Below are positions 51,627-54,373 of a stretch of DNA of 64,000 bases, in pieces. The notes under the pieces were generated by a model that saw nothing but the letters and a program-made list of their open reading frames with translations, searched no databases and was not told where the DNA came from. Position 1 is the stretch's first letter, and the number at the start of each line of letters is the position of its first letter. The DNA comes from an uncultured Gemmatimonadota bacterium (GTDB taxonomy: Bacteria > Gemmatimonadota > Gemmatimonadetes > Palauibacterales > Palauibacteraceae), in assembly GCA_913043255.1 (NCBI GenBank), contig CAJWLK010000003.1:124001-188000 (forward strand), given 5' to 3'. The position numbers were made by a program, and so were the translations under genes.

Positions 51627-51815
51627 AGCGCCTCGCTGGCTAACGGGTGGTCTCATAGTACCGCGATAGAGCCCAACCGGATAATCTTATATTACAATCA
51701 AGTTGCCCACACTGGCTTATATGGAGTGTTGGGCTGTCATATGAAACTGAATTTGCACAGTCTATTGGTAGTGCGCGGTCGAGATCCACTGCTCGCATTC
51801 AGAGAAGGAGCGGAG

Positions 51816-52313
51816 ATGTCTAGAATGCCAACAGCCATAACTTTAGCGTTTAGTCTGACACTGCTTTTTAACGCGTGTGCTCCTGAAGCGACAGCTGAGG
51901 GAACGGACGTGTCAGCTGTGGGAACCTTGGCTGTAGCGAATACGCCAACTGCAGTGGTGTACAAATCGCCTACCTGAGGCTGCTGTGGTGATTGGGTCAA
52001 TCACTTTCAAAAAGCTGGATTCGAAGTTGAAGTTCACGACACAAACCAGATGGCTTTGATTAAAGCTGATGCCGGCGTTCCTCTGCAGCTTCAGTCGTGT
52101 CATACGACCTTGATTGGAGACTACGTCTTCGAGGGGCACATCCCCGCAGATGTTATCGCGAGGTTTCTTGATGAGAAGCCGAATGCGAAGGGGCTTGCAG
52201 TTCCGGGAATGCCAATCGGATCACCGGGTATGGAGATGGGTGACCGAGTCGACTCGTACAACGTAATTGCCTGGAATGACAAGGGTGGCGCGATGGTATA
52301 CGAAAGCCGATAG
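51816..52313 (+). CDS. DUF411 lipoprotein with in-frame TGA (probable selenocysteine at residue 54)
   Basis: A DUF411 (PF04214-like) protein of 165 residues if the TGA at 51975-51977 is read. A signal and lipobox are present (LLFNAC), and GGAGCGGAG lies before ATG 51816. Upstream of the TGA the frame reads VVYKSPT; downstream, in the same frame, GCCGDWVNHFQKAGF, SCHTTLIGDYVFEGH and GLAVPGMPIGSPGMEMGD follow, all matching the family. DUF411 proteins normally have CGCC here, so the TGA sits exactly at the first cysteine. The rest is intact, so selenocysteine insertion is the best reading; a nonsense mutation is the alternative. Metal-binding or redox role likely; exact function unknown. Confidence 0.8.
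51988..52004 (+). promoter_or_regulatory. Candidate bacterial SECIS hairpin
   Basis: GTGATT at 51988-51993 pairs perfectly with AATCAC at 51999-52004 around loop GGGTC. The loop begins 16 bases after the in-frame TGA, within the distance range of bacterial SECIS elements, and has guanines at its first positions, a feature SelB recognises. It lies inside the coding sequence, as expected. Confidence 0.6.
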
Positions 52314-53840: not shown

Positions 53841-54053
53841 ATGAAACTTATCGGTTGGGTCCTGCTGGTTGTCGGATGGATTATCGTCACTGTTTATGGG
53901 GCATACTTTTTTTTGGCGGATCCCGAAGAAAGCGGATGGGAAAAGTGGGGTGGCGGACTACTCTGGGCTGGGGTTCTAGCACTCTTGATTTCAGTGGTTC
54001 GAGAACGTTACAAAGAATCGAAAACTGACCCCTATAAGGATGTATTAAGATGA
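53841..54053 (+). CDS. Small two-helix membrane protein
   Basis: A 70-residue protein with two hydrophobic helices (IGWVLLVVGWIIVTVYGAYFF and GGGLLWAGVLALLISVV) separated by an acidic, tryptophan-rich loop, and a basic tail ending TDPYKDVLR. I have the impression of similar small proteins beside YbjQ genes but cannot name a family. ATG 53841 is preferred; GTG 53826 is in frame. Its stop overlaps the YbjQ-like ATG as ATGA, so the two are coupled. Confidence 0.7.
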   Translation: MKLIGWVLLVVGWIIVTVYGAYFFLADPEESGWEKWGGGLLWAGVLALLISVVRERYKESKTDPYKDVLR

Positions 54054-54373
54054 TCATAGTTACCACGGAGCACGTGCCTGGGGCGCGGACAACCGTAAAC
54101 TTGGGGTTAGTCCGCGGCAGTTCGATTCGGGCACGGCATGTTGGGAAAGATATTTTGGCATCTTTCCGAAACCTCGCTGGTGGCGAGGTCCATGAGTATA
54201 GCAAACTGCTAGGAGAGTCTCGGGAACAGGCAGTAGATCGGATGAAAGAAGAGGCGGAAGCTTTGGGCGCAGACGCAGTAGTCGGAGTCCGATTTCAAAC
54301 CTCTATGGTGATGCAAGGGGCTGCAGAAATGCTCTGCTATGGGACAGCGGTCAAGCTAGAAACATCTCTCTAG
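54050..54373 (+). CDS. YbjQ-family (DUF74) protein
   Basis: A 107-residue protein matching the UPF0145/YbjQ family: VNLGLVRGSSIRARHVGKDI, ASFRNLAGGEVHEYSKLL, REQAVDRMKEEAEALGADAV and a C-terminal GTAVKLE. Members form ring-like pentamers of unknown function and are often annotated as heavy-metal-binding by structure only. It is translationally coupled to the two-helix membrane protein just upstream, which suggests a membrane-linked role. Confidence 0.9.
   Translation: MIIVTTEHVPGARTTVNLGLVRGSSIRARHVGKDILASFRNLAGGEVHEYSKLLGESREQAVDRMKEEAEALGADAVVGVRFQTSMVMQGAAEMLCYGTAVKLETSL

Follow-up and report, generated by a model that had tools for sequence, protein, structure and literature searches.

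A probable selenocysteine form of the CopG/DUF411 family encoded in a Gemmatimonadota genome

The closest described relatives of the protein considered here are the two solved structures bearing the entry title 'Copper resistance protein copG' (PDB entry IDs, 6WIS and 6WJE), the source of which we take to be P. aeruginosa. According to PMC7558416, CopG-like proteins hold a tetranuclear copper cluster by a CxCC motif and two adjacent Met residues, and have been proposed to oxidize Cu(I). Among the prokaryotic selenoproteins catalogued in a 2026 review, those linked to metals include the mercuric transport protein, the SO_0444 Cu/Zn efflux transporter, and CopZ-like 2Fe-2S proteins; for SaoB, SaoC, and UXX-star, the review suggests that selenocysteine (Sec) could coordinate a metal (PMC13188914). 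The same review gives Sec bound to Mo/W and Ni, with predicted contacts to Mo, Fe, Zn, Hg, and As, and its section on selenoproteins names no copper site (PMC13188914). Table 1 of the review (119 prokaryotic selenoprotein families/subfamilies) has no entry for DUF411, CopG, or PF04214, and no paper treating DUF411 together with a selenoprotein was found in the open-licence literature.

The gene described here lies in the window, by which we mean the whole 64,000-nucleotide stretch of DNA analysed, from an uncultured Gemmatimonadota bacterium. In common with the selenoprotein families catalogued in PMC13188914, it has a UGA codon at a conserved Cys position, a candidate SECIS element downstream, a predicted thioredoxin-like fold, and Cys-containing homologues; it is set apart by its U-G-C-C motif and by the absence of DUF411 from that catalogue. 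This new Sec variant of the known DUF411/CopG family is very probably real, and would add to the selenoproteins a widespread family unlisted in the 2026 catalogue.

The gene and its in-frame UGA codon

The gene occupies positions 51816–52313 of the forward strand and would encode 165 residues, with UGA read as Sec54. It runs from an ATG at 51816, preceded on the same strand by a Shine–Dalgarno-like AAGGAG (51805–51810, read directly, ending 5 nt before the ATG), to a TAG ending at 52313; on re-reading the sequence, the single internal stop was the TGA at 51975–51977 (forward strand), just as the first-pass annotation had stated. The residues around this codon read VVYKSPT-U-GCC, with the proposed Sec in the first position of a UGCC motif that aligns with the Cys of CGCC, and a full DUF411 domain follows. 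PF04214 matched (E 2.1e-26; 91.8 bits, cut-off 27) over residues 92–139, which lie entirely after the TGA, and the Pfam DUF411 core (52089–52232, forward strand; SCHT, EGHIPA, and PGMPxGSPGME) contains the invariant Cys95, His96, His108, Met132, and Met139. This match, together with the aligned homologues (126 with U and 81 with C in the column), agrees with the earlier placement of the TGA on the first Cys of the DUF411 motif CGCC. A single DUF411 copy was present in the window's genome among the matches listed.

Beyond the TGA, 111 codons remain open; extensions of at least 80 codons behind the stop were found for 2 of the 38 window ORFs of at least 200 aa. Since 15 of these 38 ORFs end in TGA, there is no general reassignment of this codon, and general TGA recoding in the window's genome was rejected. 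Downstream of the TGA, the gene differs from Cys relatives of the same genus mostly at third codon positions (for L025, at 20, 14, and 61 sites in codon positions 1, 2, and 3, respectively); on this account the stretch looks like that of a selected protein, and the earlier reading of a frame free of any other defect holds. The N-terminus is lipoprotein-like, with Cys21 in LLFNAC and a Cys at the matching place in the genus relatives, and the protein is probably an exported lipoprotein, as predicted by eye from this segment.

A phmmer search of the PDB with the single sequence returned 6WIS/6WJE as the only solved relative (6wis, E 5.7e-31), and a profile search scored the same pair at E 1.2e-41, the next matches being two thioredoxins (E 0.002). 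The AlphaFold2 model of the window protein, with block-mean pLDDT of 93–97 from residue 51 on, has a thioredoxin-like fold as in CopG: in the Foldseek comparison (E 4.7e-16), the TM score was 0.92 by target length and 0.70 by query length, with an rmsd of 1.3 and 44% identity over the whole domain, and CopG chains accounted for all five PDB matches at E ≤ 0.001. The two proteins are thus alike in whole-domain homology, SCH, EGHxPA, and GMPxGSPGM; CopG has C-G-C-C, whereas the window protein would have Sec for the first Cys of CxCC, two of the three Cys being kept. In the alignment of the window protein with 32 other Sec forms, position 54 (U), Cys56, Cys57, Cys95, His96, His108, Met132, and Met139 are invariant (33/33), and 6wis, too, has the additional Cys, the two His, and both Met. 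From the invariance of position 54 and the reported CxCC ligands of CopG, it follows that the UGA stands in the place of the first Cys in the reported copper-binding motif. Most likely, the window gene encodes a CopG that carries Sec within that motif.

UGA-containing relatives and the selenocysteine machinery

The first-pass annotation had proposed a selenoprotein and had named the Sec machinery, relatives with TGA at the same codon, and a SECIS element among the points to check. All four components of the machinery were found in the window's genome (a single draft assembly of 2.45 Mb in 28 contigs, 93.9% complete): tRNA-Sec (74.1 bits; called tRNA-SeC with anticodon tca by ARAGORN), SelA (500.6 bits, cut-off 268), SelB (361 bits, cut-off 242), and SelD (371.8 bits, cut-off 125). 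The SelD (L020, G000:C1:189470–190399) is itself a UGA-containing selenoprotein with the sequence HGAGUGCKIG. As SelA occurs in 284 of the 394 genomes of the class, the presence of the machinery is only weakly informative there. It is this canonical machinery that points to Sec, not Cys, as the residue inserted.

A DUF411 match occurs in at least 311 of the 394 class genomes. Scanning all of them with the pattern P-[T/S-like]-U-G-C-C-x-x-W gave matches in 22 genomes, of which 20, the window's included, carry DUF411 with TGA at the same codon and 2 are not DUF411; the backwards-pattern control over the same genomes gave 3 matches. tRNA-Sec was found in 19 of the 20 TGA genomes and SelA in 18; every one of them has tRNA-Sec, SelA, or both. 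Within the genus, the gene is present in 16 of 17 genomes, with TGA in the window's genome alone and CGCC in the other 15.

GTDB genomes were scanned with a stricter pattern, in which PT must precede the UGA and W must follow the motif. At least 94 DUF411 stretches with TGA in register were obtained (23 of the 117 listed matches were not DUF411), a lower bound given the stricter pattern and the listing; some stretches come from one genome (for example, L101 with L157 and L127 with L159), and at least L089, L117, L138, L180, and L184 are shared with the 20-genome set. Ten named phyla are represented, in addition to three stretches without a phylum: Chloroflexota (at least 24), Acidobacteriota (at least 22), Pseudomonadota (at least 16), Gemmatimonadota (at least 11), Myxococcota (at least 8), Rokuibacteriota (at least 5), Campylobacterota (at least 2; Helicobacter brantae and H. 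cholecystus), and Tectimicrobiota, Methylomirabilota, and Actinomycetota with one listed stretch each; most of the listed stretches are from metagenome bins, so that single phylum assignments may be wrong. The TGA is accordingly shared by relatives in many phyla, but not in the genus, where all 15 relatives with the gene have Cys.

Among 50 genomes of this wider set, chosen by us for diverse loci, SelA was found in 48, in 46 above the model cut-off. One of the two genomes lacking SelA (L184) has tRNA-Sec; in the other, an Anaerolineae MAG (L128, G429), neither was found, and either the bin is incomplete or the gene stands without machinery. The two Helicobacter genomes (L099 and L140) have the Sec form and SelA, without a tRNA-Sec match to the Rfam model at E 1e-9; their tRNA-Sec may be divergent. 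Annotation programs that treat every TGA as a stop would truncate such Sec-DUF411 genes.

The hairpin downstream of the UGA codon

Directly after the UGA, a candidate bacterial SECIS element spans 51978–52016 of the forward strand (the RNA being that of the coding strand), with a whole-fold energy of −12.1 kcal/mol. Its apical hairpin (51987–52005, forward strand) has an 8-bp stem and a GGU loop (51995–51997) located 17 nt after the UGA. With these values the element lies within published bSECIS limits; the near-symmetric hairpin alone misses −7.5 kcal/mol, our stricter version of those limits. The whole fold, lower stems included, was equalled by 7 of 200 dinucleotide shuffles, and 32 of 3000 synonymous shuffles attained the energy of the apical hairpin (−7.0 kcal/mol; retested with a loop range of 16–37 nt). 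The overall 45-nt folding energy was unexceptional, 459 of 3000 synonymous shuffles being as low. None of the 13 Cys genes of the genus included in this test, out of 15, has a similar apical hairpin. Judged by published limits and shuffles, the check suggested earlier yields a SECIS-like hairpin.

Across the family, a strict bSECIS scan with the −7.5 kcal/mol hairpin limit was passed by 53 of 106 Sec genes and by 33 of 40 Cys genes, but not by the window gene. As it does not discriminate, an apical-hairpin test was used in its place, the control being synonymous-codon shuffles. The set consisted of 207 aligned hits, of which the 126 with U represent 125 loci, including four copies of the window gene; 106 unique complete Sec genes and 80 of the 81 Cys genes, the latter from one class only, were kept. 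With limits of −5 kcal/mol and a loop 16–24 nt after the UGA, chosen after the strict-scan results and folds had been seen, 65 of 106 Sec genes have a SECIS-like apical hairpin (14.0 expected) versus 6 of 80 Cys genes (15.4 expected). In sets filtered at 60% redundancy, the counts were 28 of 40 (5.6 expected) and 2 of 24 (4.7 expected), respectively. The Mann–Whitney p for Sec versus Cys was 4e-14 unfiltered and 5e-6 filtered, relatedness being handled by the 60% filter alone. The folding difference between Sec and Cys genes fades with longer windows of folding (nt 0–39, p 2e-7; 6–45, p 0.002; 0–54, p 0.013; 12–66, p 0.18).

The loop lies 21 nt after the UGA in 38 of the 65 Sec genes that pass, and 17 nt after it in 11, including the window gene; L144 has the same GGU loop at 17 nt, and the notion that this register is peculiar to the window was dropped. 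At codon 8 downstream of the UGA, where the loop at 21 nt is formed, Asp/Glu is encoded in 64 of 80 Cys forms versus 22 of 106 Sec forms, while Gly, Ala, or Val is found in 60 of the 106 Sec forms. When Gly is encoded there, GGT is used in 23 of 35 cases, against a background of 191 of 1547 Gly codons (240 nt after the UGA or Cys codon, all hairpin-test genes). At codon 8, the protein sequence thus appears to have yielded to the RNA element, a shift that would be hard to explain without Sec insertion. In the window gene, which uses the loop at 17 nt, codon 8 (51999–52001) encodes Asn.

On the basis of the machinery, the same-codon TGA relatives, and the SECIS-like hairpin, the window gene is predicted with high probability to encode a selenoprotein, as first suggested. 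The UGA would be decoded as Sec by SelB and tRNA-Sec, aided by the hairpin. The alternative that a Cys codon was changed to TGA in this strain or assembly, by mutation or sequencing error, giving a truncated protein, draws on the single draft genome and on the uninterrupted, Cys-encoding gene of 15 relatives in the genus. We consider it very improbable in view of the same TGA codon in 19 further class genomes and in at least 94 GTDB stretches (overlapping sets), of a gene without any other defect whose divergence after the TGA is biased to third positions, and of a well-placed hairpin absent from the 13 Cys relatives tested. Opal-reading variant tRNAs exist in other bacteria, and this, like the Cys of the homologues at the UGA position, would suit a decoding of the UGA as Cys or Trp, or plain read-through. 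Such decoding is very improbable, as it has to contend with the use of TGA as a terminal stop in the window, with a genome holding tRNA-Sec, SelA, SelB, and a Sec-type SelD, and with hairpin statistics that tie the UGA to a SECIS element.

Copper handling and the origin of the Sec form

The earlier guess of a redox or metal-handling enzyme can be narrowed, by CopG homology and the fold match, to a CopG-type copper protein. The model places Sec54, in lieu of the first Cys of C-x-C-C, just before the first helix of the thioredoxin-like domain of a predicted exported protein. There it could serve as a selenolate ligand of the copper cluster, or as a redox nucleophile beside it, in periplasmic copper handling; for CopG itself, a change in the oxidation state of copper has been proposed. 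We regard a copper role for the window protein as likely, and a Sec-containing CopG would link selenium to copper handling.

Linkage to copper-export genes is frequent for DUF411/CopG, although not defining, and was seen neither among the scanned neighbours of the window gene nor at the sampled Sec loci. The six window neighbours scanned comprise an MscS-type channel, a PLP enzyme, an acyltransferase, a beta-propeller, a hydrolase, and YbjQ, with no copper gene among them. At 46 other Sec loci (redundancy-filtered), 131 neighbour proteins were tallied, namely 131 of the first 150 ORFs of up to 700 aa drawn from the 220 nearest ORFs, and no copper family was among the commonest 25 of the 160 Pfam families matched. 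The YbjQ-family gene (54050–54373; PF01906, 'putative heavy-metal-binding') is located 1.7 kb downstream, past the PLP-enzyme gene on the opposite strand.

These neighbourhoods would also suit a selenoprotein of CopG ancestry that has not kept its metal, acting as a thioredoxin-fold thiol/selenol oxidoreductase. In the same direction point the weak profile similarities of other Sec forms to the glutaredoxin-like (seleno)protein models of NCBIfam (June 2026): YruB (TIGR02196) in 26 of 33 (best E 8.4e-05) and Uxx-star (NF041212) in 12 of 33 (best E 0.0026), other NCBIfam matches being scattered single ones. At E 0.1, the window protein itself matched no NCBIfam model, these two included; we take the Uxx-star/YruB proteins to be without the C-terminal His/Met part of DUF411. 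Redox roles are also what the review expects for most uncharacterised selenoproteins (PMC13188914). Nevertheless, the identity of 44% to CopG over the whole domain, and an additional Cys, two His, and two Met residues, invariant in all 33 sequences and shared with 6wis, make an oxidoreductase without copper unlikely.

In the phylogenetic tree (143 rows, 121 columns), the window protein groups with the Cys proteins of its genus, with a best identity of 72% over the 121 columns. Sec is scattered on the tree, requiring 13 changes, or 9 without the long row L172_Secb, with few forks supported; in the AU test, a single Sec clade stays acceptable (p 0.396). Given this and the short alignment, independent origins are suggested: the window lineage may have undergone a separate Cys-to-Sec change, or its congeners may have lost Sec. 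Taking the copper reading further, we tentatively propose, at somewhat less than even chances, a natural selenolate–copper centre, in which an encoded Sec would ligate a multinuclear copper cluster in an exported thioredoxin-fold protein of ten or more phyla, and which the window lineage may have acquired through a recent Cys-to-Sec change of its own.

Cys and Sec forms both occur among the relatives, and in three genomes of the class they occur together (L067/L193 in G042, L224/L202 in G092, and L221/L201 in G154), so that the effect of selenium in a copper-binding motif is directly testable. One betaproteobacterial contig (L172) carries two UGA-containing DUF411 copies, one of which has apparently decayed after the UGA.
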